Below, piece by piece: positions 1,882 to 36,406 of a DNA stretch of 64,000 nt. Location of the stretch: IMG/VR virus record IMGVR_UViG_3300028384_000675, positions 28,947 to 92,946 of that record. One strand, written 5' to 3'. Origin of the DNA: a virus. A model generated the notes under the pieces. It was given only the letters and a program-made list of their open reading frames with translations. It did no database searches and had not been told where the DNA came from. Numbering within the stretch: the first letter of the stretch is position 1; every line of letters starts with the position of its first letter. A program made the translations under genes and the position numbers.

Positions 1882-2585
1882 GGGAGCCTCTCCGTTCTAG
1901 TTTTTCCAGACACTATATCTGCAATGCATTTCGCAGTAACATTATAATACTCGCAATATTTTCTGGCGAATGTAGAGTATGGAGTTATCGGTTTCCAACC
2001 AGAATTTTTCTTTCTTCTTTCTTCGTTAATCGGTATCAGTTCTTCTCTTATTTTATCTAGTTCTTTCGCAAAAGTATCTCTGATCTCATCAACTTGATTG
2101 TCTGTCAATTTTGGCGGTCTTAATCTTTTTCCTGATTTGGATTCTTTTTGTTTTTTAATATATTCTGGGTTTTTGTAATTTTCTTTACTTCTCTTTGACC
2201 TTATGTGAAATCCTTCTCTTTTTGCGCGTTTTTTTGCTGACTCAGACATTTTTTTTCTTTGTTCGTCAGAAAACTTATATCCCAATGTTGTGAAGTTAGG
2301 CGAGTTGTGCCCATACCCTTTACCAGAAGGAGATTCGTTCAACCCATTATTAAACGTATCAAGGGAATTAATCCAATACTCTTCTCTTCCTTCAATATAG
2401 TTTCGGTCGTTAGATTCTTCAAGTATTTGTACATCGAAATCGTCACCTTTAAAACGATTAGACCTTTTGTGATCGCCCATTCGAATCTTGAATCTACGTT
2501 GTATGGTAATCCCAACGTATTGCTTTGAGTCTGACTTCCTCTTCAAAAGATAAACCAAGTGTTTCTCTTGTTCTGATACAGTCAT
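1863..2585 (-). CDS. GIY-YIG homing endonuclease between the two terminase genes
   Basis: This is a 240-residue free-standing homing endonuclease. The GIY-YIG core starts VYLLKRK (residues 11-17) and YVGIT (23-27). It is followed by a likely catalytic Arg in RRFKIRMGDHKR and the metal-binding Glu in GREEYWI (around 66-72). A NUMOD3-type DNA-binding motif is seen in SDEQRKKMSESAKKR (106-120), and the C-terminus looks like a helix-turn-helix (YYNVTAKCIADIVSGK). Its start overlaps the end of the N-terminal terminase gene by 92 bases in another frame, and its end overlaps the open start of the C-terminal gene. A TATAAATA promoter lies 33 bases upstream of the ATG. It would cut intein-less or uninterrupted gene 17 to spread itself. 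It could instead be read as an intron endonuclease, but no intron is needed here. Confidence 0.9.
   Translation of the reverse strand: MTVSEQEKHLVYLLKRKSDSKQYVGITIQRRFKIRMGDHKRSNRFKGDDFDVQILEESNDRNYIEGREEYWINSLDTFNNGLNESPSGKGYGHNSPNFTTLGYKFSDEQRKKMSESAKKRAKREGFHIRSKRSKENYKNPEYIKKQKESKSGKRLRPPKLTDNQVDEIRDTFAKELDKIREELIPINEERRKKNSGWKPITPYSTFARKYCEYYNVTAKCIADIVSGKTRTERLPSIYKS
1887..1893 (-). promoter_or_regulatory. Shine-Dalgarno that places the start of the terminase C-terminal gene
   Basis: GGAGAGG on the minus strand, five bases before ATC (1879-1881) and eleven before ATA (1873-1875), both in frame with the intein-C half. It is followed by CTCC, so GGAG-AGG-CTCC could form a small hairpin that hides the site until ribosomes finishing the endonuclease open it. 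The function is inferred from position. Confidence 0.55.
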
Positions 2586-3462
2586 AAAAATCGCCTATTC
2601 TTATTTCGTATATAATATTATTTATAAGAACAGTTATTTGAGAACGACTTTCTAGGCAATTACCAAATTCTTGGTCGAACTGTAATTGCGAAGTGTTTGA
2701 AATTGTTTGTCGTTTCCACTCCTCGTCTCGACCAGGAACGTCCCACCAATTTACCGTGAATGCTTTGTACTCATTAACCTTTTGTACAGCACCTTCCCAT
2801 ATTTTATGATAGGTGTTTCCGATACCATTCGCTGTAGATGTAATAATAACTTTCGTATCTTTACCAGATGAGATAACAGGATAGGTTGAAGTATAGAACT
2901 CAGCAGCACGCTCAACAAACGCAAACTCGTCCAGAAAAAGCAGGTTAACAGACATACCACGTATAGAAGAACCAGAGGTGGCAGCAGCAATAATGCGAGA
3001 ATTATTACTAAACTCAATTGAACCTTTATTAAGAGCGCGACACCCTGGCTGTAGAAAAAACGGTAAATTTTCAAGCGCCAAGGTGACTCTGGCGAGCATC
3101 TCTCGAGCGGTTGCACCTTTGTTAGCGAGGACAGCGATCGTCTTCTCAGGGTGAAATATAGCATACCATAATAGATAAACAACGGATGAAATAGACTTAC
3201 CACTTTGTCGACAGGCGAGGACGATCGAGAAACGATTATCATTAAAGTGGTCAAACATATTTTCTTGATATGGGTAAAGGTCAAAGTTGACAAGTCCTTT
3301 ATCGAGAGAAATGATTTTTACATATGTTCGTGCAAAATATGCAGGATCTTTCATACATTTAGCATACTCAACGACCTGTTCTTCAGTCCATTGTTGTTGT
3401 ACGCCATCCCGTTTTACATTAATATTACCAAGGTAACTATCATTCATCCTGATCGCTAGCAT
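2494..3462 (-). CDS. gp17: Large terminase gp17, N-terminal gene: ATPase domain plus intein-N half
   Basis: This is the ATPase motor of the DNA packaging machine. It has Walker A ACRQSGKS (near residues 84-91), Walker B LLFLDE (near 175-180) and a coupling motif IITSTANG (near 207-214). The extein ends LQFDQEFGN and is followed by Cys (codon 2656-2658), the first residue of an intein. After about 26 intein residues ending IGDFYD the frame runs out of phase through the endonuclease start and stops at 2494, leaving a 28-residue tail. N-extein (~268) plus C-extein (~269) gives about 537 residues, near normal for T4-like terminases (T4 gp17 is 610). The ATG at 3462 is preferred over TTG 3465 because AAGGTG lies just upstream. 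An ATG at 3447 is an alternative. The start overlaps the end of gene 16. Confidence 0.9.
   Translation of the reverse strand: MLAIRMNDSYLGNINVKRDGVQQQWTEEQVVEYAKCMKDPAYFARTYVKIISLDKGLVNFDLYPYQENMFDHFNDNRFSIVLACRQSGKSISSVVYLLWYAIFHPEKTIAVLANKGATAREMLARVTLALENLPFFLQPGCRALNKGSIEFSNNSRIIAAATSGSSIRGMSVNLLFLDEFAFVERAAEFYTSTYPVISSGKDTKVIITSTANGIGNTYHKIWEGAVQKVNEYKAFTVNWWDVPGRDEEWKRQTISNTSQLQFDQEFGNCLESRSQITVLINNIIYEIRIGDFYDCIRTRETLGLSFEEEVRLKAIRWDYHTT
2581..2658 (-). other. Split intein, N-terminal half (IntN) of the terminase
   Basis: Twenty-six codons from the catalytic Cys to IGDFYD: block A-like CLESRSQITV and a following IGDFYD that resembles the IEDLY segment of AceL-TerL IntN (25 residues). 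The homing endonuclease ATG (2583-2585) lies inside the last codons, so the intein is interrupted precisely at this N-proximal site. Confidence 0.8.
2619..2626 (-). promoter_or_regulatory. Late promoter of the homing endonuclease, inside IntN
   Basis: The minus strand reads TATAAATA within the codons for the intein segment VLINNI, 33 bases before the endonuclease ATG. The spacing matches the late promoters of fibre and baseplate genes elsewhere in the window (25-35 bases). Confidence 0.7.
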
Positions 3463-3796
3463 CAATCACCTTCTCATCATTTTGTTGCAGTAGTCTCTGC
3501 AGGTCAGTGGTACTTCCTATGAAAACATTATTATTAGTGATTGCCTTTTGTTCTTCTTTCTTAGGATCGCTCATTATATCCATGTTCTTTTTATTTAGAT
3601 CCATCAGTTTGTCGGTCACATCAGCGATGTTCTTGATCATGCCGGATAGAACCTCGAACGCACGTGGGTGCTCGCTCTCGCGCGCGACCTCCATCATTAG
3701 GTCCATGCCACGTTTACCGTTCTCAATTAAATCAAGATATGTATCGCGAGAGGTTTCATAATCGTCTTTGATGTTTTTCTTATCTTGATCTGTCAT
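3440..3796 (-). CDS. gp16: Small terminase subunit gp16
   Basis: This 118-residue protein forms the ring that regulates the packaging ATPase. The core segments DYETSRDTYLDLIENGKRG and SEHPRAFEVLSGMIKN, followed by TDKLMDLNKKN, match the conserved helical core of T4 gp16 and its relatives. It is shorter than T4 gp16 (164 residues). It overlaps the 1192-residue gene upstream by four bases and overlaps the start of gene 17 downstream, so translation of the packaging genes is coupled. In T4 gene 16 follows gene 15. Here it follows 33 kb of adhesin genes. Confidence 0.92.
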   Translation of the reverse strand: MTDQDKKNIKDDYETSRDTYLDLIENGKRGMDLMMEVARESEHPRAFEVLSGMIKNIADVTDKLMDLNKKNMDIMSDPKKEEQKAITNNNVFIGSTTDLQRLLQQNDEKVIDASDQDE

Positions 3797-22655: not shown

Positions 22656-23945
22656 TTAGAACTTGAGATAGCACATTACGATCTCATGACTTGAGTTAGA
22701 AGTTCTATTTTTTACGCCCACCATACCGATGACCGACTCACTAACCTTATAGAAAGACTCAGGTTGTGTTGTCATTGGTGTTACGCTCGGTGTACTGAAT
22801 GTTACAGTGCCAGAAGTGGCAGGAGAGCAGATTAGAGTGTTGCCCGAACCTGGTTTTAATACTCGGATTCTATAATTATATGGATTCCTAAATTGATCAT
22901 CAGACCATTGATCGGTGGTATTGTTAGCCCCATGATTCGAATGAATATAAACCATTGTCTTCTCATCGTCGTTACCAAGTTGATGCCATTCTAGGTAACT
23001 TGAATCGATTCTATAGTCGCGCGCTATATCATTGGCGAAACTTAGTTCTGAGGTCACATTATTACTATTAGTGCCATAACCGCGTACATATCCAACCCCT
23101 TCACCGACCATATACCAGTCGGACGTCGAGTATGCAATAGGCAGTGAATTCACCAGATCTGCCAAATCAGCATCCTGAGGTGATCCACCGGTTCTCGCCA
23201 TCACATCGTATACTTGACTTCCGGAGAAATTGCTACGGAAAATCATATACCCATTCGAGCTGCTGACTGAGCTGTTGGAGTTCAAGTAATAGGTTATAAA
23301 GAATTGTCCTGGCGTAGATTTAACTTCTTTCATACTTACCCAACCGTAAATTCTGTTGTTAGTTTCCATAAATTGTCCTGAACCAGGAACACTCATGGCG
23401 GTAACAGACATATTATCGCTAGTCGTACTGAATGAAATTTTATCAAGATGACAATACGTGTAACCAGTAGAAGATCTATATTCTGGCCAACCGAAGGCAA
23501 CTTGGTTCTCGGCAACTTGTTCAAACATCACACTCATATACTGCGGGGCAATAATACTAGGAATGGTGTATTCGTCATCTACCTGATACATATTGTTGTC
23601 ATCATCAGCATCAATTCGAATCGGGTACACATTGGCAGATGTGTTCGACTGAACTAAAATTGCAACTGTGTTGTCATTAAGTTTTGCGACTCGAAGTCCA
23701 TAATGTGAACTAGTAGTAGTTGTCGGCGCGATACCTGCGATAGATTGCGTTTTTTGAATTGTAATGGAAGGGGAACTTGTTCCTTCTCCGGTTACAGTGT
23801 AAAGGCAACCAAATACGTGGTTCGGATTAGTTTGAGCATAAACAACAAAATATTGACCATTGCCCATTTGACAATATCCAGCAGTCGACAGGTCAACAAT
23901 GGATCCGCCGTCAACTGGGATTGGAGTTAAAGATACTTGTGACAT
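22656..23945 (-). CDS. Unrecognised 429-residue structural protein, probably beta-propeller-like
   Basis: I do not recognise a named family. The protein begins MSQVSLTPIPVDGGSIV and contains repeated beta-strand patterns such as YFVVYAQTN, TVAILVQSN, QVAFGWPEY and QFFITYYLN, spaced as in a beta-propeller or beta-sandwich. It has no signal peptide or membrane segment and is rich in Ser, Thr and Asn, like phage tip proteins. AAGGAG precedes the ATG and a late promoter lies 25 bases upstream. A strong terminator follows the stop. Its place between two giant adhesin genes suggests a receptor-binding or fibre-cap role, which is inference. Confidence 0.55.
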   Translation of the reverse strand: MSQVSLTPIPVDGGSIVDLSTAGYCQMGNGQYFVVYAQTNPNHVFGCLYTVTGEGTSSPSITIQKTQSIAGIAPTTTTSSHYGLRVAKLNDNTVAILVQSNTSANVYPIRIDADDDNNMYQVDDEYTIPSIIAPQYMSVMFEQVAENQVAFGWPEYRSSTGYTYCHLDKISFSTTSDNMSVTAMSVPGSGQFMETNNRIYGWVSMKEVKSTPGQFFITYYLNSNSSVSSSNGYMIFRSNFSGSQVYDVMARTGGSPQDADLADLVNSLPIAYSTSDWYMVGEGVGYVRGYGTNSNNVTSELSFANDIARDYRIDSSYLEWHQLGNDDEKTMVYIHSNHGANNTTDQWSDDQFRNPYNYRIRVLKPGSGNTLICSPATSGTVTFSTPSVTPMTTQPESFYKVSESVIGMVGVKNRTSNSSHEIVMCYLKF

Positions 23946-24010: not shown

Positions 24011-24937
24011 TTAGTCAATAATAGTGAATGTTCCACCCATATTTTGATGCAATTGGCACTTATACTCATAACTTACACCCGACACTGGGGTGAATGAGAC
24101 ACTACCAGTTTCCGTTGGATCAGCAATGAGGACATTATTATCGTCAACGATCATAAACGGATGACCAGAAGTGTTTACATTAAACGTATATTCTGTTCCA
24201 GAAGTAAGGTCTAGTGATGGAGCTTCCACACCATTCAAATAGAACTTACCGTTAGAAACTGTCACGTTAAATGTCGTAACTTCTGGTTCTGGATCAGGTG
24301 CCGATTCAACCGTAAAGTCAGAAGTCGTTGTCGTAGCATTACCATTCGCATCAGTCGCAGTAAATCTCATTGAGAACGAAGTCGCTTCACTTCCTGGTGT
24401 TACTGTGAATACATTATCAGACTGGGATACTGTAGCGCCGTTGAGTGCGGAAGAAGCAGAAATTGCAGTAACTGAAACACCGAATTGATCGCCCCCAGAA
24501 CCATCAAACGCAGTTAGTTTGGTTGGTTGAGCAGATAGATTGTTTGCGTCATAGACGTAGACTGAACCAGTGTAAGAATCGTCATAATACGCACCAACGA
24601 CGATCTTATCAGCAGTAGCAGCAACTGATATACCGAACTGATCGCTAGCAGCGCCATCAAACGCTGTTAGTTTAGTCGGTTGAGCAGATAGATTGTTGGC
24701 ATCATAGACATAAACTGAACCCTTAGTGTCGTCACCATATGCACCAACAACGATCTTATCACTAGAAGCAGCAACTGAGTGTCCAAAGAGATCATTCGCA
24801 GCACCATCAAATGCTGTTAGTTTCGTTGGTGTTGCAGATAGATTGTTGGCGTCAAAGACATAGACTGAACCAGATTGAGTTCCATTGTCATCGTCAGCTT
24901 GTGCGCCAACAATGATCTTGTCAGCAGTAGCAGCAAC
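24011..24937 (-). CDS. C-terminal continuation of the FG-GAP giant beyond two stop codons
   Basis: After the stops at 24938-24943 the same frame stays open for 308 codons. It continues the blade pattern without loss (VAATADKIIVGA, GSVYVFDANNLSA, then two more blades). A linker (SDNVFTVTPG) follows, then an Ala-Pro-Asp-Pro-Glu hinge and a cupredoxin-like domain. That domain runs FNVTVSNGKFYLNG, SGHPFMIVDD and YEYKCQLHQNMGG, with a possible copper set His, Cys, His, Met. The first in-frame ATG is at 24370, after the propeller part, so independent translation would give only 119 residues. The segment completes a seven-bladed propeller begun before the stops. It may be read through, be a dead remnant, or reflect an assembly error. 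Confidence 0.7.
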   Translation of the reverse strand, partial: VAATADKIIVGAQADDDNGTQSGSVYVFDANNLSATPTKLTAFDGAANDLFGHSVAASSDKIVVGAYGDDTKGSVYVYDANNLSAQPTKLTAFDGAASDQFGISVAATADKIVVGAYYDDSYTGSVYVYDANNLSAQPTKLTAFDGSGGDQFGVSVTAISASSALNGATVSQSDNVFTVTPGSEATSFSMRFTATDANGNATTTTSDFTVESAPDPEPEVTTFNVTVSNGKFYLNGVEAPSLDLTSGTEYTFNVNTSGHPFMIVDDNNVLIADPTETGSVSFTPVSGVSYEYKCQLHQNMGGTFTIID

Positions 24938-25540
24938 TTACTAACCGAAGGAATCAAAAGAAGCACCATCAAACGCAGTTAGTTTAGTCGGTTGAGCAGA
25001 TAGGTCATTGGCGTCATAAACATAGACTGAACCATTGAAATCGTCACCATTTGCACCAACGACGATCTTGTCGGAAGAAGTAGTAATTGAATATCCGAAT
25101 TTATCATTCGCAGCGCCATCAAATGCAGTTAGTTTAGTTGGTTGAGCGGATAGATTGTTGATGTCATAGACATAGACTGAACCAGTGTAAGAATCTTCGC
25201 CGTATGCACCAACAATGATCTTATCAGCAGCAGTAGCAATTGAGATGCCGAAGAAATCGCCCGCAGCACCATCAAATGCTGTTAGTTTAGTTGGTGTTGC
25301 AGATAAATTATTGGCGTCATAGACGTAGACTGAACCAGACTGAGATCCATTGTCATCATCTAGGCGTGCACCAACAATAATCTTATCAGCAGTAGCAAAA
25401 ACATTCTCTCCGAAGCAATCACCTGCAGCAGCATCAAACGCTGTTAGTTTCGTTGGTGTTGCAGACAGATTGTTGGCGTCATAGACATACACTGAACCGG
25501 AACTAGATCCATTGTCGCCGTCACCCCATGCACCAACAAC
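24400..25540 (-). repeat. Near-identical propeller blade repeats
   Basis: Seven blade units of about 150-165 bases, all containing a stretch like CCATCAAACGCAGTTAGTTT on the plus strand (near 24500, 24650, 24800, 24965, 25115, 25265 and 25430). They are far more alike than blades further upstream, which suggests recent duplication or gene conversion. They are also a hazard for short-read assembly. Confidence 0.8.
24938..24943 (-). other. Tandem in-frame stop codons TAG TAA
   Basis: The minus strand reads GGT TAG TAA GTT at the place where other blades have Phe-Gly followed by two residues such as Tyr-Ser or Ile-Ser. The preceding blade uses TAT TCA here, so each stop is one base change away. 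The frame is otherwise intact on both sides. Confidence 0.9.
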
Positions 25541-28500
25541 GACATAACTTGATCCTGACGCTACTTCCTCATAAGACCATGTAATCGCATCGCCTTCTGG
25601 ATCAGTACCAACTGCAGTAATTGCTGTTCCGCTTCCACCTGCTGTCAGCAGATATGAAGACTCAATACCAGTCACCGATGGTGCTTGGTTGACATATGTA
25701 AAGTCAAAGTCAGATGACACTGACGTTACATTACCTTCTGAGTCAGTCGCCTTAAAGGTCAACTGGAAGTCAGCGTCCTGTTGACCAGGAGTTACTGTGA
25801 ACACGTTATCAGATTGCGCAACGGTTACATCACCGAGTGGACTAGGTGCAACAGATCCAACTGCGTTAAATCCAAAGCTAATGCTAGTACCAGTTCCCGC
25901 AGGTGGATTTACTAATTCTGGTGCTGCCGATAAATCGCTCAGGATGTAAACATACATACCACCAGTACTCGCGTCTTTTCTGTGAGCAGAAGAATATAAC
26001 TTATCGCCAATTATGGTTGTGTTATATCCTAGCATTGCACCTGTTGCTGGAGATTCCAATACTGTCGGAGCAGCAGAAAGGTTGTTTATGTTATAAACAT
26101 AAATAGCACCTGCTGATGAGTTTCTTTGGTGTGCCCCGACGAAAAGTTTATCTTCGTGTGGAAGAACAGACATACCAAAGTAATCTCCTTCAGCAGCATC
26201 GAATGCTACAAGTTTCTCAACAAAGGATAAGTCGCTTTCGTTGTACACGTATACAGCACCACCACTAGTACCGTTCGAATTATGGTCCGCAGTCACAGCA
26301 GAAATATAGATCTTACCCCCATAAGTTTTTATTGAGTATCCGCCAAATCTGTCAGACTCAGACGCATCTGGCGCAGTTAATTTCTGTACGAATGCATAAG
26401 TATTGACATCGTAAACATAAACTGCTCCAGCATCAGTACTATTGTCGTCGTCTCCCATCGATCCAATCAAGATATGATTAGATGTTACTGTTATACCTCC
26501 GCCAAGTCCAAAATAGTCGCGATGATCGCCGTTGGTAGGAGTTAATGTTGCCTGAAGCGAAAGGTCAGATTTGTTGTAGATATAGACTTTTCCGGTATAA
26601 TCATCATTACTGTTCGTTGTTGGTCCCCATCCATATGCTCCAATGATCAATAAGTCGTCAGTGACGGAAATTCCGCTTCCGAATCGAAGGTTATTCTGCG
26701 CTTCGCCAGTAAGCATGGTCGGCGCGGCAGAAAGGTCGCTTCTATCGTAAATATAAACCGCTCCGCCCCAGGTTTCATCCGATTCATCTGACATCATCTC
26801 ACCTATGTAGATTTTGTCGGAATCAATTTCCATTGAAAATCCAAATCGTTCTGCTGATGAACCGTTCGGCGCAGTAAGCAATGTTGGTTCCTCTGTCAAA
26901 TCAGTTGGATTATATACATACACATAACCCTGATAACTATTAGATTGTATCGCAGAAACAAATAACTGATCTTGTGACGTGGATGACACTGCCTCATACG
27001 ACCATGTAACCGTGTCACCTTCTGGGTCAGTTGCCGCAGCAGTGATCACAGTGCCCTGACCTTGAGTCAGAGTATATGTTGAGTCAATACCAGTCACCGA
27101 TGGTGCTTGGTTAACATAGGTCAACGAGAAGTCTGCATCTCTGGTATCCGTATTTCCTGCTGTATCAGTGAGGGTGAATCGTATCGTGAAGTTTGCATCA
27201 GCAGTTCCTGGTGTTACTGTGAATTCGCCGCCATTTTGCGTTATAGCAGTTCCGTTCAAACCAGAAGGAACGCCTCCGTTCAAGACTTCTGCAAACGACC
27301 AAGTAACAGCGTCGCCGTCAGCGTCAGATGACATACCAACGATCACCTCGTCTACACCCTGAGTCAGCGTATACACAGATTCAATACCTGTGATCACTGG
27401 CGCAGCATTATAGTCAAAGGTGATGTCAGAGGTCGCAGTAGTCGCTGCACCGTTTGTATCAGTTGCCGTAAAGGTCAACTGGAAGGTAGCATCTTGATCC
27501 CCAGGAGTGATTGTGAACACGTTACCCGCCTGAGTTACTGTTGTACCTGAAAGGTCGCCAGAAGTTACTGCGTAAGTCAACGAAACAGTATCACCGTCAG
27601 AGTCTGAAGTTGTTACTGTGATCTCAGTATCTTGACCTTGATCCAGCGTATACGAAGAATCAACGCCAGTTATTGATGGCGCGTCATTATAGTCTAGTGT
27701 AAACTCAGAATCGAAGTTTGTCTGGTTTCCTGACTCATCAGTTGCAGTAAAGCGCAACGTGAAGTTAGCATCCTGTTGTCCAGGAGTTACTGTGAAGTCA
27801 TTACCGTTCTGCGTTACAGTAGTTCCGTTCATACCAGAAGGAACACCCTCGCCTAGAACTTCTTCGTAACTCATAGTAACTGTTTCGCCTTCGGCATCAG
27901 ATACTACAGGAACGATTACTTCGTTAACGCCCTGAGTCAATGTATACGCAGGTTCAATACCGCCGAGTGACGGTGCTTGATTCACGTATGTAAAGTCAAA
28001 GTCAGATGTTGTAGAAGTCACATTACCGTTTGAGTCAGTCGCCTTAAAGGTCAACTGGAAAGTAGCATCCTGTTGTGCAGGTGTTACTGTGAAGACATTG
28101 TCAGATTGTGTTACAGTGACACCGTTGAGTTGCGAAGATAGATTATTTGCAGAAACTGAATAACCGAAATAATCTGCTCCTGCGCCATCATATGCTGTTA
28201 GTCTGGTCGGTTGAGCAGAGAGATCATTTATATCATAGACATAAACTACTCCAGTATATGTACTACCAGGACCGCCGTATGCTCCGACAATGATTTGTTC
28301 AGACGTTACCGCAAGACCAGTGCCGAACATATCAGTCGCAGCACCATCAAACGCTGTTAGTTTCGTTGGTTGAGCAGACAGATCGTTTGCGTCAAAGACA
28401 TAAACTGATCCAGATTGCGCCCCTCGGTCATCATCAGCATATGCGCTCACAACTACCTTATCAGAACTTATAGCAACGTGTTGCCCGAACATATCGCTCG

Positions 28501-31500
28501 TTGCCCCATCGTATGCTGTTAGTTTCGTTGGTGTCGCAGAAAGATCGTTCGCGTCATAGACATAGGCAGTGCCTGTATTGCTATTATCGCCCCTCGCTCC
28601 GATAACGACCTGACTAGAGGATGCTTCGATTGATATTCCAAACATTTGGTTTTCTGAAGCATCCGGAGATACCAACTTAGTTGGTTGAACAGAAAGGTCT
28701 GACTTATCGAAAACGTATACCGCTCCAGAATTATTTCCGTGATCGTCATCAAACGATCCGACTAATATCTTATCAGCAGTCGTAGCGAATCGATATCCGA
28801 AGTTATCACTCACAGCGCCATCATATGCTGTCAACTTAGTTGGTTGTGCATTAAGGTTATTTATGTCAAAGACATAAACTGCACCGGCATAAGTTGCCTC
28901 TTGATCATCCCAAGAATTTCCGACAATAATTTGATCTTCGGTAACTAGAACACGTTCTCCGAACCTTTTATCTCCTGCTTGATTATGCATATCATATGCT
29001 GTCAGTTTTGTTGGAGTAGCAGAAAGGTTGTTCAAATCGTACACGTAAACTGAACCAGAGTTAGGTTGCCCATCATCATCACCATATGATGTTACAGCTA
29101 ATATATTAGAATTTAAAGAAGAATGCCTGCCGAAGGAATCACCCGCAGCACCATCAAACGCAGTTAGTTTCGTTGGTTGGGCAGATAGATTATTCGCGTC
29201 AAAGACATAAACTGAACCAGAATTAGACCCGTTGTCATCGTCTCCTGCTGCTGACACAACCACATAATTCGTACCAGAGATTACTTCCTCATAACTCCAT
29301 GCGATCGCATCACCTTCTGGATCAGTTCCGACTGCAGTGATCACAGTGTCCTGACCTTGAGTCAACGTGTAAGCAGACTGGATTCCAGTCACCGATGGCG
29401 CTTGGTTGACGTAAGTAAAGTCAAAGTCAGAAGTTGCTGAAGTTGCGTTACCTTCTGAGTCAGTCGCAGTAATGCGTAACTGGAAGTCAGCATCAGCAGT
29501 TCCTGGCGTTACTGTAAACACGTTATCAGATTGTGTTACAGTGACACCGTTGAGTTGTGAAGGAGCAGAAACTGCAGCGACTGCCCAACCGAAACGATCG
29601 TCGTAAGCAGCATCAAATGCGAACAACTTAGTTGGTGCTGCTGATAGATCGTTTCTATCATAAACCCATACTGACCCATTTCTGCCATCGTCCATATTGG
29701 CGCCAATTACAATACTGTCTTCATTTATAGAGATATCTTGTCCGAAGTATTCGGATTCAGTATCGCCATCATCAGGTGCCGTGAGTTTTGTTGGAGCAGC
29801 AGAAAGATCGCTAGTATCATAGACATAAACTGCGCCTTGATAAGCATTACCATTTTCTGATTTTCTTTCTGCACCAACTACAAGAGACCCATGACGTGCA
29901 TCGACCCGCTCTCCAAAGTAACTATTTGACGTTAAATCTGACTCAGTAATAATTGTTGGCGCTGCTGATAGATCACTCAGAGCGTAAGCAAAGACTGCAC
30001 CTTTTCTACCATTATATCCCATGGCACCAACGTAAAGATTAGTGTCATCAGAAGCGAGGTAACAACCTAACTGTAAGTAATCTGTACCATCTTCGAGTTT
30101 TGTTGGTGCTGCTGATAGATCGCTCAGAGAATATACATAAACTGCTCCGTGATTATAAGAACCATGTTGTCGGCAACCAACATAAACATTATTGCTGTCT
30201 ATGTGTACAGCTCTTCCAAATTGATCAGAACTACCGCCATCAGGTGTAACCAACTTGGTAGGAGTTGCACCTAAATTAGAAGCGTCATAGACATAAACTG
30301 CACCGGCATTAGTCGTTTTTGTATCGTCGTTGATTGCAGAGACTACTACATGCGTTTCAGTTGCTGAAATTGCCCAACCCACATTGTCAGACGCAGTTGA
30401 TGGTGATAGTATTGTTGGTGCTGCTGATAGATCGCTTAAATCATAGACGTAGGCGCTACCAAAATTGTTCCCTCCGGTGTCATCGGAATAAGCACCAACG
30501 TAAAGTTTAGTGCTAGTCATAAACATACTCGCACCATAATTGCCGGAAACTGGTGATAATTTAGTTGGTCGAACAGATAAATTGTTAGCATCATAGACAT
30601 AAACTGAACCAGAGTTAGTTCCGTGAACGTCATCGAGCGGTGCACCAACAGCAATATAACTTGATCCAGACTTAACTTCTTCGAACGACCATGTAATCGC
30701 GTCACCTTCTGGATCAGTTGCCGCAGCAGTGATCACAGTATCCTGACCTTGAGTCAGCGTGTAAGCAGACTGGATTCCAGTGACGGTTGGCGCTTGGTTG
30801 ACATAGTCGAAGTTGACCGTTGCTGGTACAGTTGCCGTGTTACCGTTTGAGTCAGTCGCCTTGATGTTCAATGTAAACGAAGCATCCTGAGTTCCTGGCG
30901 TTACTGTGAACACGTTATCAGACTGTGTTACAGTAGTTCCGTTGAGTGCAGATGATAATACATTATATTCATTAACATTCTTAGAGTCATTGTAGTCCGC
31001 AACAAAAACCTTACCAGATCCGAAACCTATACCCAACTCAGAATAATTATATGAGTATTCAGATGGATTGTATGATCCTGCTAAAGCATTTGTACTTAGA
31101 TCATATATCCTCATCTCACCAGAATTATGATTCAGTATCAAATATCCATCAGAGACAGATATCTGTTCAGATATCTGACTACTAGAATATGAAACTACAT
31201 CAGAGAGTCTATTTCCAGTGGTAGCATCGTATACGAAGATGGTTCTTTGGTCCGAAACATAAATCTTATCGTTCGAAATCTCAACATCCGCTATCTCATT
31301 AACTCCATCGAAATCGATTCTAAATGAACCATTTTGATAATCTGTGATGTCTGGATATACAGTTAAGTGTTTTCCATATGAACTCTTGCTAGCCACTACA
31401 ACCTTATTCTCTTCGGATACTATAACTTCTCCCCATTTAGCATATTCTACAGCACCTTGTGGATCAGCAATCCATCCATCTATTTCAGCATATGTGTTTT

Positions 31501-34500
31501 TGTCGTAAATACGAATTGCACCAGATTGGTTTCCTGATTGATGTCTCCCATGAGCACCAACAACAATTCTATCGGTTGTCACAGTGACAGCGAAACCGAA
31601 TTTTTCACCGTTAGATCCAGATGGGTTGTAGATTGATTGGAGTTTATTACCATTCAGGTCTGCAATCACAATACCACCTGCTTGGGTTCCGCCTGTAGGC
31701 GCTAATTGCTCCCCGCCGCTGACAACAATATCGTCCCCAAAGGCAATTGAAGCGCCTAAAAACTGAGATCCGGATGTCGAATCAGGTTCTATTCTATTAA
31801 TCAATTGTCCTGTTTGATGATTGAACAGGAATACTGCTCCTCCATAACTACTATATCCAGTATTACTGATCGCAACGATATCACCGCTTACTTTTACCGT
31901 CTTCCCTGGGCGATCAGAAGACCCCGGATCTGCAAATTTATATGGTGCATAACTGTTTCGAACGAACGATTCAGAAGTTAGAGAAACAGATAGTTGCTCC
32001 TCGAACGACCATGTGATCGCATCACCTTCTGGATCAGTTGCAGCAGCAGTGATCACTGTATCCTGACCCTGAGTCAGCGTATATGCTGCGTCAATACCAG
32101 TAACGGTTGGAGCGAAGTTATGCGCTCTTGCGTCTGCTGTATCATACATTGCAAGAGAAGATCCCAAGAATGCGCGATTAGTTGGATTAGACTGGTGAAT
32201 TGTATTCAGTAGATTACCGCTCATGTCGTATACACGGAGTTCACCAGAAGAAGTCTCTGCTGCATTCTTACCGTAGTCGCCGACAACGATTCTGTTGTTT
32301 GCAACAGAGATTCGAGTGTTGTTGGTAGATGCGATCTTTTGCATATTCGATCCATCAAGGTCGAAGATGTAGAAGTGAGCGGCGTTATCTGAACCGACAA
32401 CAACCTTCTCATGTCCAATTGCGAGACCAGTACCGAAACGGGCAACACTTGTAAGTGCTGGATCGTAGAGTCTTACCTCATTAGATCCATCGAGGTCATA
32501 AAGATAAACCGATCCAGCGAAACTGTTGATTGATCCGCCGTCAGCGATAAACGCAGTAACTGCAATTTTTCCGTTACCAATAGCGATCTCATAATCGCCG
32601 AATTGATCGCTTTCAGTCTGACCATCTGTAGCAGAAATTGTATTTATGAACGTTCCCTGCATGTCATAGATATAAACCTGACCTGAATCTGTAACACCGT
32701 CAGCATCTGCCATTGGAGCGCCGACTACGATTCTTCCATGACCCGCAGCAACTTTCCAACCGAATTTGGTCCAACCGTTCTGACTTCCTGCTCCTGGTAA
32801 TCCAGCAGAAGGTTCAGTAACTTTAATTTCGTTTGAACCATCCAAGTCGTAAATGTAGAATTCCCCTAGTCCAGAACCGCCTTCATAAGTACCGACGATA
32901 ATCTTCCCATCGCTGATTGCGACTGATGTACCGAATAGGGTACTAGGTGCCGAAGGAGTTATCTCTATTGGTTCGTTTGTAGTTGCGAGATCGTATACGA
33001 AGACTCTCTGTTCAGTTCGTTGACCAACAACGAGGATTGTACCGTCGATTGCCATGTTTTCGTCAGCACCGAACTGAGAATCATTATCCATACCTGCTGG
33101 GATGAACAATTCTTTCTCGTTTGATCCGTCAAGGTCAAACGCATACAATTTGTTCGAGTAGTTGTTATTTGATGCTGCTGCAATAATTCTTCCAACAGAA
33201 GTATCATTAACAACTGGTACCGGAATCTCATAATCGAACGTTGGTGTGACCTTAGTAGAATTGCCTTCTGAGTCAGTCGCCTTGATGTTCAATGTAAACG
33301 AAGCATCCTGAGTTCCTGGTGTTACTGTGAATACGTTATCAGATTGTGTGATAGTGACACCGTTGAGTGCAGACGAAGAAACATACCCTACCATATTGTC
33401 ACTAAATGCAACATAAGTATTTGACCCAGAGATTTGATGCGATGTTCCTTGCCCAGTATAGAGATATGTACCAGAACTTAAATCCGCAAAGTCATATACA
33501 TACAATTTTCCGGTGTTATTATTCTCAGTCTTGTCTCCAACAAAGAGTCTATCTCCTGATACGGCAAGATCTGAACCGAATTCATAACCCGTATTGGAAG
33601 GTTTGTATATGATTGCTGGATTGGCACTCAAGTTATTCCTATCGAACACCCATACGCTTCTATCACTTTCTTTCTGGACTATTACATGATCAGAAGAAAG
33701 TGCAACACTTCTACCAAATTTAGCGCTTCTAATAGCAAACAAAGGTACAGATATTGGCGCTGCAGACAAATTTTCAGTATCGTAAATATACGCTGCTCCG
33801 GAGTTTGCCTGAGATCCATTATATTCAAACGGTATACCAACGACAAAATGCGTTCCGAAAGCGGCAATGGAACAGTCTTGTAAAGTTGCAGACGCATTTA
33901 GTACTGTTGGAGACGCAGATAAATCGTCAAGGTCATATACGACCAAAATTCCATAACTTTGACCTGACGCAGTCGACTGCGAACAGATCAACTTATTACC
34001 CGAAACGACGATATTTTCACCAAAATCACGATTCATTGCAGAATTTGGCGAAGTTAGTACTGTCTTGTTAACAGTATACGGATCGACGGTACCAGAACCT
34101 AAATCATTCAGATCAAATACCCATATTGCACCGCGATTGTTTGTTAATGATGGATGACCTACAATTAGGTGATTATCTGTAATTGCAATTGATTCTGCAG
34201 TAGATTGATACTGTATTTCAACTTCATGGGTAGATAAATCATTTAGGTCATATATTCTTATTGAATTACCACGCTTTCCTGCTAATTTACCGCCGCCAAC
34301 AGTCATCATTATCAGAGGATCTTGAATGGTTTCGATTAGTTCCATTGTAGACGGGTTGTACAAATATGTGTCGTAACTGCTTTTAACAAAAACGCCTGAT
34401 CCCAGTACTTCTTCGAACGACCATGTGATTGCATCGCCTTCTGGATCAGTTCCGACTGCTGTGATCACAGTATCCTGACCTTGAGTCAGTTCATATGTTG

Positions 34501-36406
34501 AGTCAACGCCAGCAATTACTGGTGGTTGATTGACATATATGATGTTAGTTGTTACAGATGTTGTGTTGTCTTCAGTGTCAGTCGCAGTAATACGCAAGTT
34601 GAAATCTGCATTTTTCATTTCTGCTGTTGGTGTCACTGTAAACGTGTTATCAGATTGCGTGATAGTGACGCTGCTCGCTGGAGCAGTGTTTGCTGAAACT
34701 CTAATTCCAAAGAAATCCCGATATCCACCATCGAATGCTGTTAACTTGGTTGGTGCTGCGGATAGATCGTTTAGATCATAAACATAAGTCGAACCGGCTT
34801 GATTTTCACTATAACTCGATCCGACGATAACATGATCGTCAGTTATCGCAACATCTGATCCGAAAAATTCGAATTCAGAGTCGCCGTCATCTCCCACATA
34901 CAATTGAGTCGGTTGAGCAGAAAGGTCGCTTAGGTCAAAGACGTAAACAGCACCTTGATACACTTGTCCATCCATTGTTTTTCTATGGGCAGCGATTACA
35001 GCAAAATTTTCGTTCGCTACAATCCTATCTCCGAAGTTGTCTCGACCATGACTAGTTGGTGGAGACGATCCATCAAACGCTGTTAGTTTCGTTGGTTCGG
35101 CAGAAAGGTCGTTTAGGTCATAGACATAAACTGCACCAGTATCGATACCTAGATCGTCGTCACCCACGGCGCCAACAAACAATTTACTGCTTGTCAATTC
35201 AATGTCGGCACCAAATTGGTGCGCGGCACCAGTGTACTGGTTTGTCAACAAATCACTTGGCACGATTTCAGTTGGAGCGGCAGAAAGATCGTTTATATCA
35301 TAAAGGTATACTATACCTTCGTCGACGGTGGGATTCCCAGCATCGTTTGTTCCATCCACCCTAGACACGCCGACAGCAAGATAACTTTCGTTCAAAGACA
35401 TATATTCTCCGAACTTATGTTGATTGCCGCGCGGATCTTCGAGTATCTTAATTGGATCAGCAGACAAATCATTCAAGTCGTAAACATATACAGCACCTTT
35501 GGATCCATTTGACGTACTGATATACCCATCGAACGCACCAACCACAAGTTTGTTACTATTGACAGCGATACGCTTTCCAAATACAGTCCACTCTCCTTGA
35601 TCAGGTGGAACTATTTTTATTGGATCAGCAGAAAGGTCGCTGGTGTCATAAACATAAACTGCGCCGCCGGCACTGAGACCGGAGTCAGTTTTGACATAAG
35701 AACTAATGAAAAGTCTTTCAGGAGTAACTAAAACGTCGCCCGCACCAAACTGATCACTCGCAGCACCATCAAATGCTGTCAACTTAGTTGGCGCTACAGA
35801 TAAATTGTTTGCATCATAGACATAAACTGCACCAGCGTTAGATCCTTTATCATCGTCACCACTTGACGTTACAACTATATAACCGCCGCTTCTAAGTTCT
35901 TCGAACGACCATGTGATCGCATCACCTTCTGGGTCAGTACCAACTGCAGTAATTACGGTGTCCTGACCATATGTCAGATTGTAAGTAGATTGGATTCCAG
36001 AAACGAATGGTGGGAAGTTGATCATCAATTCTGGTTGGAATGATATTGAATCGATTACGTAATCATTCTTACCGTACCAACCAGTGTGGAATTTAAGGTC
36101 TGGATTGTAGTCTGCTGCGGTAGGTCGCATTGATACTGTATCGAGATCAACCGAATCCTTACCATAAATTCCAGTGTGGAATTTAAGGTCTGGATTATAT
36201 GTGGCGTCCGTTGGTTGTAACGATATTGAATCGATTACATAACCGTCACCCTTACCATACCATCCAGTGTGGTATTTTAAATCTTCATTATAATCTGCGG
36301 AAACTGGTCTAATCGAAGTTGTAACGACTACGACTTCCTCTATCTCTGCTTCAAACCAGCTTTGCTTACTTCCTGCTAATGCCGACGTTAGGTGTCTAAA
36401 GCGCAT
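24941..36406 (-). CDS. Giant integrin-like FG-GAP propeller adhesin (3821 aa before stops)
   Basis: This is a huge modular protein. It begins with three short repeats (SISLQPTDATYNPDLKFHTG type). About eight FG-GAP beta-propellers follow, with blades such as DQFGAGDVLV and KLVVGAFDG plus GAVYVYDLNDLSA. They are separated by cadherin/Ig-like linkers (QSDNVFTVTPGTQDASFTL, NQAPSVTGI, YTLTQGQDTVITA, TDPEGDAITWSFEE). Four linkers occur in a row near residues 2730-3090. Some blades hold calcium-loop-like DDDNGSNSG motifs, as in integrin alpha chains. GGGAGAG precedes the ATG. No signal peptide is seen, as expected for a virion protein. It probably forms a long bead-like fibre. Two stop codons cut the last propeller (see the following continuation). 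The copies near the C-terminus are almost identical in DNA. Confidence 0.85.
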   Translation of the reverse strand: MRFRHLTSALAGSKQSWFEAEIEEVVVVTTSIRPVSADYNEDLKYHTGWYGKGDGYVIDSISLQPTDATYNPDLKFHTGIYGKDSVDLDTVSMRPTAADYNPDLKFHTGWYGKNDYVIDSISFQPELMINFPPFVSGIQSTYNLTYGQDTVITAVGTDPEGDAITWSFEELRSGGYIVVTSSGDDDKGSNAGAVYVYDANNLSVAPTKLTAFDGAASDQFGAGDVLVTPERLFISSYVKTDSGLSAGGAVYVYDTSDLSADPIKIVPPDQGEWTVFGKRIAVNSNKLVVGAFDGYISTSNGSKGAVYVYDLNDLSADPIKILEDPRGNQHKFGEYMSLNESYLAVGVSRVDGTNDAGNPTVDEGIVYLYDINDLSAAPTEIVPSDLLTNQYTGAAHQFGADIELTSSKLFVGAVGDDDLGIDTGAVYVYDLNDLSAEPTKLTAFDGSSPPTSHGRDNFGDRIVANENFAVIAAHRKTMDGQVYQGAVYVFDLSDLSAQPTQLYVGDDGDSEFEFFGSDVAITDDHVIVGSSYSENQAGSTYVYDLNDLSAAPTKLTAFDGGYRDFFGIRVSANTAPASSVTITQSDNTFTVTPTAEMKNADFNLRITATDTEDNTTSVTTNIIYVNQPPVIAGVDSTYELTQGQDTVITAVGTDPEGDAITWSFEEVLGSGVFVKSSYDTYLYNPSTMELIETIQDPLIMMTVGGGKLAGKRGNSIRIYDLNDLSTHEVEIQYQSTAESIAITDNHLIVGHPSLTNNRGAIWVFDLNDLGSGTVDPYTVNKTVLTSPNSAMNRDFGENIVVSGNKLICSQSTASGQSYGILVVYDLDDLSASPTVLNASATLQDCSIAAFGTHFVVGIPFEYNGSQANSGAAYIYDTENLSAAPISVPLFAIRSAKFGRSVALSSDHVIVQKESDRSVWVFDRNNLSANPAIIYKPSNTGYEFGSDLAVSGDRLFVGDKTENNNTGKLYVYDFADLSSGTYLYTGQGTSHQISGSNTYVAFSDNMVGYVSSSALNGVTITQSDNVFTVTPGTQDASFTLNIKATDSEGNSTKVTPTFDYEIPVPVVNDTSVGRIIAAASNNNYSNKLYAFDLDGSNEKELFIPAGMDNDSQFGADENMAIDGTILVVGQRTEQRVFVYDLATTNEPIEITPSAPSTLFGTSVAISDGKIIVGTYEGGSGLGEFYIYDLDGSNEIKVTEPSAGLPGAGSQNGWTKFGWKVAAGHGRIVVGAPMADADGVTDSGQVYIYDMQGTFINTISATDGQTESDQFGDYEIAIGNGKIAVTAFIADGGSINSFAGSVYLYDLDGSNEVRLYDPALTSVARFGTGLAIGHEKVVVGSDNAAHFYIFDLDGSNMQKIASTNNTRISVANNRIVVGDYGKNAAETSSGELRVYDMSGNLLNTIHQSNPTNRAFLGSSLAMYDTADARAHNFAPTVTGIDAAYTLTQGQDTVITAAATDPEGDAITWSFEEQLSVSLTSESFVRNSYAPYKFADPGSSDRPGKTVKVSGDIVAISNTGYSSYGGAVFLFNHQTGQLINRIEPDSTSGSQFLGASIAFGDDIVVSGGEQLAPTGGTQAGGIVIADLNGNKLQSIYNPSGSNGEKFGFAVTVTTDRIVVGAHGRHQSGNQSGAIRIYDKNTYAEIDGWIADPQGAVEYAKWGEVIVSEENKVVVASKSSYGKHLTVYPDITDYQNGSFRIDFDGVNEIADVEISNDKIYVSDQRTIFVYDATTGNRLSDVVSYSSSQISEQISVSDGYLILNHNSGEMRIYDLSTNALAGSYNPSEYSYNYSELGIGFGSGKVFVADYNDSKNVNEYNVLSSALNGTTVTQSDNVFTVTPGTQDASFTLNIKATDSNGNTATVPATVNFDYVNQAPTVTGIQSAYTLTQGQDTVITAAATDPEGDAITWSFEEVKSGSSYIAVGAPLDDVHGTNSGSVYVYDANNLSVRPTKLSPVSGNYGASMFMTSTKLYVGAYSDDTGGNNFGSAYVYDLSDLSAAPTILSPSTASDNVGWAISATETHVVVSAINDDTKTTNAGAVYVYDASNLGATPTKLVTPDGGSSDQFGRAVHIDSNNVYVGCRQHGSYNHGAVYVYSLSDLSAAPTKLEDGTDYLQLGCYLASDDTNLYVGAMGYNGRKGAVFAYALSDLSAAPTIITESDLTSNSYFGERVDARHGSLVVGAERKSENGNAYQGAVYVYDTSDLSAAPTKLTAPDDGDTESEYFGQDISINEDSIVIGANMDDGRNGSVWVYDRNDLSAAPTKLFAFDAAYDDRFGWAVAAVSAPSQLNGVTVTQSDNVFTVTPGTADADFQLRITATDSEGNATSATSDFDFTYVNQAPSVTGIQSAYTLTQGQDTVITAVGTDPEGDAIAWSYEEVISGTNYVVVSAAGDDDNGSNSGSVYVFDANNLSAQPTKLTAFDGAAGDSFGRHSSLNSNILAVTSYGDDDGQPNSGSVYVYDLNNLSATPTKLTAYDMHNQAGDKRFGERVLVTEDQIIVGNSWDDQEATYAGAVYVFDINNLNAQPTKLTAYDGAVSDNFGYRFATTADKILVGSFDDDHGNNSGAVYVFDKSDLSVQPTKLVSPDASENQMFGISIEASSSQVVIGARGDNSNTGTAYVYDANDLSATPTKLTAYDGATSDMFGQHVAISSDKVVVSAYADDDRGAQSGSVYVFDANDLSAQPTKLTAFDGAATDMFGTGLAVTSEQIIVGAYGGPGSTYTGVVYVYDINDLSAQPTRLTAYDGAGADYFGYSVSANNLSSQLNGVTVTQSDNVFTVTPAQQDATFQLTFKATDSNGNVTSTTSDFDFTYVNQAPSLGGIEPAYTLTQGVNEVIVPVVSDAEGETVTMSYEEVLGEGVPSGMNGTTVTQNGNDFTVTPGQQDANFTLRFTATDESGNQTNFDSEFTLDYNDAPSITGVDSSYTLDQGQDTEITVTTSDSDGDTVSLTYAVTSGDLSGTTVTQAGNVFTITPGDQDATFQLTFTATDTNGAATTATSDITFDYNAAPVITGIESVYTLTQGVDEVIVGMSSDADGDAVTWSFAEVLNGGVPSGLNGTAITQNGGEFTVTPGTADANFTIRFTLTDTAGNTDTRDADFSLTYVNQAPSVTGIDSTYTLTQGQGTVITAAATDPEGDTVTWSYEAVSSTSQDQLFVSAIQSNSYQGYVYVYNPTDLTEEPTLLTAPNGSSAERFGFSMEIDSDKIYIGEMMSDESDETWGGAVYIYDRSDLSAAPTMLTGEAQNNLRFGSGISVTDDLLIIGAYGWGPTTNSNDDYTGKVYIYNKSDLSLQATLTPTNGDHRDYFGLGGGITVTSNHILIGSMGDDDNSTDAGAVYVYDVNTYAFVQKLTAPDASESDRFGGYSIKTYGGKIYISAVTADHNSNGTSGGAVYVYNESDLSFVEKLVAFDAAEGDYFGMSVLPHEDKLFVGAHQRNSSAGAIYVYNINNLSAAPTVLESPATGAMLGYNTTIIGDKLYSSAHRKDASTGGMYVYILSDLSAAPELVNPPAGTGTSISFGFNAVGSVAPSPLGDVTVAQSDNVFTVTPGQQDADFQLTFKATDSEGNVTSVSSDFDFTYVNQAPSVTGIESSYLLTAGGSGTAITAVGTDPEGDAITWSYEEVASGSSYVVVGAWGDGDNGSSSGSVYVYDANNLSATPTKLTAFDAAAGDCFGENVFATADKIIVGARLDDDNGSQSGSVYVYDANNLSATPTKLTAFDGAAGDFFGISIATAADKIIVGAYGEDSYTGSVYVYDINNLSAQPTKLTAFDGAANDKFGYSITTSSDKIVVGANGDDFNGSVYVYDANDLSAQPTKLTAFDGASFDSFG

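Follow-up and report, generated by a model that had tools for sequence, protein, structure and literature searches.

Tandem in-frame stop codons in the last propeller of a giant FG-GAP fibre gene from a T4-like phage

A giant phage fibre gene is closed twice in succession, by TAG and then TAA, part-way through its last FG-GAP propeller, and the same reading frame continues beyond. Is this double stop a nonsense lesion, an error in the assembled sequence, or a device by which the phage regulates its fibre tip? The window analyzed here (64,000 nt) was taken from a 92,946-bp IMG/VR virus record (IMGVR_UViG_3300028384_000675) of a T4-like, Kyanoviridae-like phage. Genes in the record fit a T4-like tail and baseplate, and include a tail sheath stabilizer, a baseplate wedge, a hub and a lysozyme.

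The interrupted fibre gene

The fibre gene encodes FG-GAP propellers and Ig-like modules arranged as a chain. Its relevant parts are as follows, in window coordinates.

24941..36406, minus strand: giant FG-GAP / Ig-like fibre gene as written in the record (3,821 aa, ATG to TAG; relatives L001, L002, L003 and L050)
24944..25570, minus strand: repeats 1–4 of the last seven-bladed propeller, ahead of the stops (repeat analysis and structure model)
24941..24943, minus strand: first in-frame stop, TAG, immediately past the FG in the fourth repeat of the last propeller
24938..24940, minus strand: second in-frame stop, TAA, adjoining the TAG
24479..24937, minus strand: repeats 5–7 of the same propeller, past the stops, in an intact frame (repeat analysis and structure model)
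24290..24478, minus strand: Ig-like closing module, common to L001, L002 and L050
24014..24289, minus strand: tip of cupredoxin fold in which a His/Cys/His/Met set is conserved (homologues in Phage C48C1 and L011–L013)
24011..24013, minus strand: original terminal stop, TAA, closing the fibre-gene frame beyond the double stop

The initial annotation had reported two adjacent in-frame stops followed by 308 further codons, and both observations were confirmed. The minus strand reads TAG TAA from 24943 to 24938 (TTACTA on the plus strand), replacing the two residues that follow the FG of repeat 4. ORF reading then gave 308 codons in the same frame up to the TAA at 24011–24013, with no further stop and no frameshift. 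Matches to PF14312 (FG-GAP_2) were found on both sides of the lesion, with E 6e-235 upstream (760 bits) and 9.4e-41 downstream (138 bits), against a Pfam gathering cut-off of 23 bits.

Seven repeats were counted in the last propeller, in agreement with the seven blades first proposed. Of these, four are encoded in the record as it stands; the earlier figure of about 4.5 blades in the absence of readthrough was close, the remainder being four full repeats. With both stops read as Gln, AlphaFold predicts a propeller with a mean pLDDT of 78 and propeller blocks mostly at 75–95. The stop positions fall within a β-strand of a confidently modelled blade (model residues 208–214). Integrin alpha chains were the best Foldseek matches to this model and make up most of the top ones, down to E 4e-13. 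The fibre is thus like integrin-alpha type seven-bladed β-propellers in both repeat family and predicted fold. Unlike those proteins, it strings many propellers together with Ig-like modules over more than 3,800 aa, one of them interrupted by stops. The same repeats occur in annotated virion structural proteins of the T4-like cyanophages S-TIM5 and S-MbCM6 and of Vibrio phage nt-1, where tblastn matches covered about half of the 308-aa query at <50% identity. A literature search found no papers on FG-GAP cyanophage fibres.

Constraint beyond the stops and the origin of the lesion

Across the window and 20 viral loci, 91 FG-x-x sites were compared. A stop was present at one, namely this TAG TAA, and the other 90 were stop-free. 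No internal stops were seen in the other FG-GAP matches of the relatives' records, so the comparison of the site across relatives that had been called for shows none that carries a stop. No relatives were found in bacterial genomes. Viral contigs were also searched for a second copy of the allele or a sense counterpart; the 15 matches to the first pattern all lay outside FG-GAP frames, and the second pattern had no match. The stop string was absent from all other viral contigs in the search.

Selection on the two parts of the gene was compared using five homologous propellers of L001 and L002. Omega was 0.23–0.29 upstream and 0.25–0.33 downstream of the stops, values that carry uncertain blade orthology and a pS of 0.4–0.5 and so date the lesion only as recent. 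The tip gave an omega of 0.48 over 91 codons against Phage C48C1. The Ig-like module past the stops recurs in L001, L002 and L050, in each case running stop-free into an intact tip. Judged by divergence, the part beyond the stops is as constrained as the part ahead of them. Since this holds and the module and tips are intact in relatives, the lesion is either recent or not real.

On balance, TAG TAA is probably a private and very recent nonsense lesion that arose in a single compound event, in a gene that had so far been intact and subject to selection. The probability that two independent nonsense changes fall next to each other among about 31,000 codons is only about 6e-5, which argues that both stops came from one event. 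Whatever their origin, two changed bases within two codons require a compound event. Two routes are available. By substitution, the family codon pair most often found within two changes of the stops is TAT TCA (9 of 130 sites), in line with the original remark that each stop lies one base from TAT or TCA. Two offsetting indels across both codons provide an equally short path, and FG-S-K-V is found as a blade turn in L001. The sequence favours neither route.

If the lesion is real, translation would end at the TAG to give a 3,821-aa fibre whose last propeller has four blades. Blades 5–7, the Ig-like module and the cupredoxin-fold tip would be missing. The tip probably forms the distal end that touches the receptor, and an allele lacking it would therefore probably impair or alter adsorption. 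Such an allele would be expected to disappear, or to be replaced through recombination with other phages. Ordinary amber and ochre alleles of phage fibres likewise lose the distal part through an in-frame stop. The present allele differs in that two neighbouring codons were hit together and in that it is known from one assembled record only; it may not exist in nature.

The strongest competing explanation is an error of the consensus or of the reads, which we regard as a substantial possibility, although not the expected one. The population would then be sense at this site, and the stops would stem from a few erroneous reads, for example through a pair of base errors or through two one-base indels that offset each other across the two codons. 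It is consistent with this that the allele comes from a single metagenomic record and that its string was met in none of the other viral contigs. The altered bases are close neighbours, as in a clustered error, and the same bases, read out of frame over two codons, give residues tolerated at this turn in relatives (FG-S-K-V, as in L001). Against it, a greedy ORF layout showed no other gross gene interruption in the 93-kb contig, despite ORFs of 3,821 and 3,595 codons, and on this ground the consensus looks accurate. The site is also not a mosaic of k-mers of useful length from elsewhere in the contig, the longest match that fully covers both stops being one 12-mer from an unrelated place.

Assembly artefact had been among the possibilities first listed, and only part of that suggestion survives. 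Blades of the last propeller are 66–83% identical at the DNA level and no exact repeat of at least 30 nt was found among them, which makes a collapse of blades during assembly unlikely; base-level consensus error is the form that remains. The same figures contradict the description of adjacent blades as near-identical, and with it the proposed repair by recombination between them loses its premise. A chimera assembled from elsewhere in the contig was rejected by k-mer matching and by the lack of long exact repeats. Templating of the change by an inverted copy nearby was rejected as well, with only 6-nt matches, no more than chance.

Readthrough, recoding and programmed loss of the tip

A programmed switch or programmed readthrough, in which the stops set the share of tip-bearing fibres, is highly improbable. 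The intact and constrained downstream frame speaks for it. However, the stops are two different codons in tandem, no relative has them, and the motif has no other copy. Stop usage is also ordinary, with 43 TAA, 14 TGA and 9 TAG at ORF ends across the record; because all three end other ORFs, the code is standard. The 93-kb record, a fragment, contains no tRNA gene of any kind, suppressors included, and no match to reverse transcriptase (RVT_1) that could point to a diversity-generating element. A suppressor tRNA and a diversity-generating retroelement target were rejected on these last two grounds.

For E. coli and Salmonella, published readthrough of a single stop ranges from about 1e-5 to 9e-4 at TAA and from 1e-4 to 7e-3 at TAG (PMC6764699). 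If the two events were independent, the TAG plus TAA readthrough product would be of the order of 1e-9 to 6e-6. Tandem stops terminate less well than expected (PMC6764699), an effect judged insufficient to matter here, and the joint product would be negligible, far below what a component of the virion would need. The idea that the second stop was selected as a fail-safe was rejected too, eubacteria generally giving no evidence of it (PMC6764699). Programmed readthrough is typified by a leaky single stop, a stimulating context and retention in relatives; here there is a tandem TAG TAA and the relatives are stop-free. The readthrough or suppression suggested by the initial annotation thus finds no support.

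Reassignment of a stop codon in phages (code 15; PMC9523058) likewise places an in-frame TAG within a phage gene. In contrast to those genomes, TAG, TAA and TGA all end other genes here and a TAA follows the TAG, so no reassignment fits. TAG recoding was rejected for the same reasons, with 9 other ORFs ending in TAG and 43 in TAA. The possibility that the tip is translated on its own, starting at an in-frame ATG (24370), was also rejected. This ATG is ancestral, being present in L001, L002 and L050, and by eye no ribosome-binding sequence lies at a normal distance from it.

Of the population switch first envisaged, a tip-shedding population allele stands, and nothing points to a designed switch. 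A natural on/off system would have tip-bearing and tip-less alleles alternate, with the conserved joint of 56–95 bp downstream of the stops swapping or restoring tips by recombination with other phages. We give this very little credence. Equally doubtful is a new functional C-terminus, in which selection has removed the tip and decay is setting in downstream of the stops. Tips are freely exchanged in this fibre family, and alleles that lose the tip could be favoured on some hosts. Yet the downstream part shows no decay (open frame, low omega), and the propeller, with only four of its seven blades, would stay open.

The double stop itself is probably either a nonsense allele of the ordinary kind or an error; it cautions against taking single metagenomic stops as recoding.

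The cupredoxin-fold tip and a conserved DNA joint

The surroundings of the stops matter more. The gene belongs to a family of giant integrin-like phage fibres; in this family the last module closes with a DNA joint that is nearly invariant, and the tips attached to it are unrelated. The tip in the window was proposed from the outset to be cupredoxin-like, and the predicted fold agrees. Foldseek matched rusticyanin, the CuA domain, amicyanin and plastocyanin (E about 1e-4 to 1e-3, probability 1.00). A sequence search of the PDB gave no match, although the fold comparison did, and Pfam Cupredoxin_1, with a cut-off of 27 bits, scored only 18. A His...Cys-x2-His-x2-Met pattern is invariant in the window and its distant homologues L011–L013, and also present in C48C1. 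This His/Cys/His/Met set is of the kind used by type-1 copper sites, making copper binding a putative function. The nearest counterpart of the tip is in Phage C48C1 (Kyanoviridae), where a 267-bp stretch including the tip shares 82% DNA identity with the C-terminus of CDS0131. There, the same tip is carried by a different protein of 933 aa, with no stop ahead of it.

The joint itself lies downstream of the double stop, between the diverged propellers and the tips.

24315..24406, minus strand: DNA joint within the Ig-like module, conserved at 90% identity or more among four phages, with unrelated tips beyond

Each of L001, L002 and L050, which come from three other samples, shares with the window an exactly identical core of 56–59 bp around a 32-bp anchor at 24376–24345. 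Exact identity between pairs of phages spans 56–95 bp. The joint is located at about 6692–6783 in L001, 14699–14790 in L002 and 1135–1226 in L050. In the propellers, by contrast, the fraction of identical codons at conserved residues is only 0.64–0.68. Past the joint the tips are unrelated, being cupredoxin-like in the window, laminin-G-like in L002, FG-GAP-like in L001 and without assignment in L050. From this pattern, the joint looks like a candidate recombination site for swapping fibre tips. Together, the joint and the unrelated tips open tip exchange among marine-type T4-like phages to direct testing.

The N-terminal part of the giant seems to have been exchanged as well, judging by its distribution among relatives. 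Its first 152 residues (35950–36406; repeats of the RPVSADYN...HTGWYGK type) are 90% identical to L003 and to that relative only. L002 has just the first residues, MRFRHLTSA, in common with the N-terminus of the giant.

Two other genes of the window were also noted. A homing-endonuclease-like gene (phrog_314; 1863–2585) lies inside the structural gene region and overlaps the next ORF (2494–3465). Directly downstream of the fibre gene, a 429-aa gene (22656–23945) has no Pfam or PHROG match. Its one relative in viral contigs, in L050 (78%), occupies the same place after the fibre gene.
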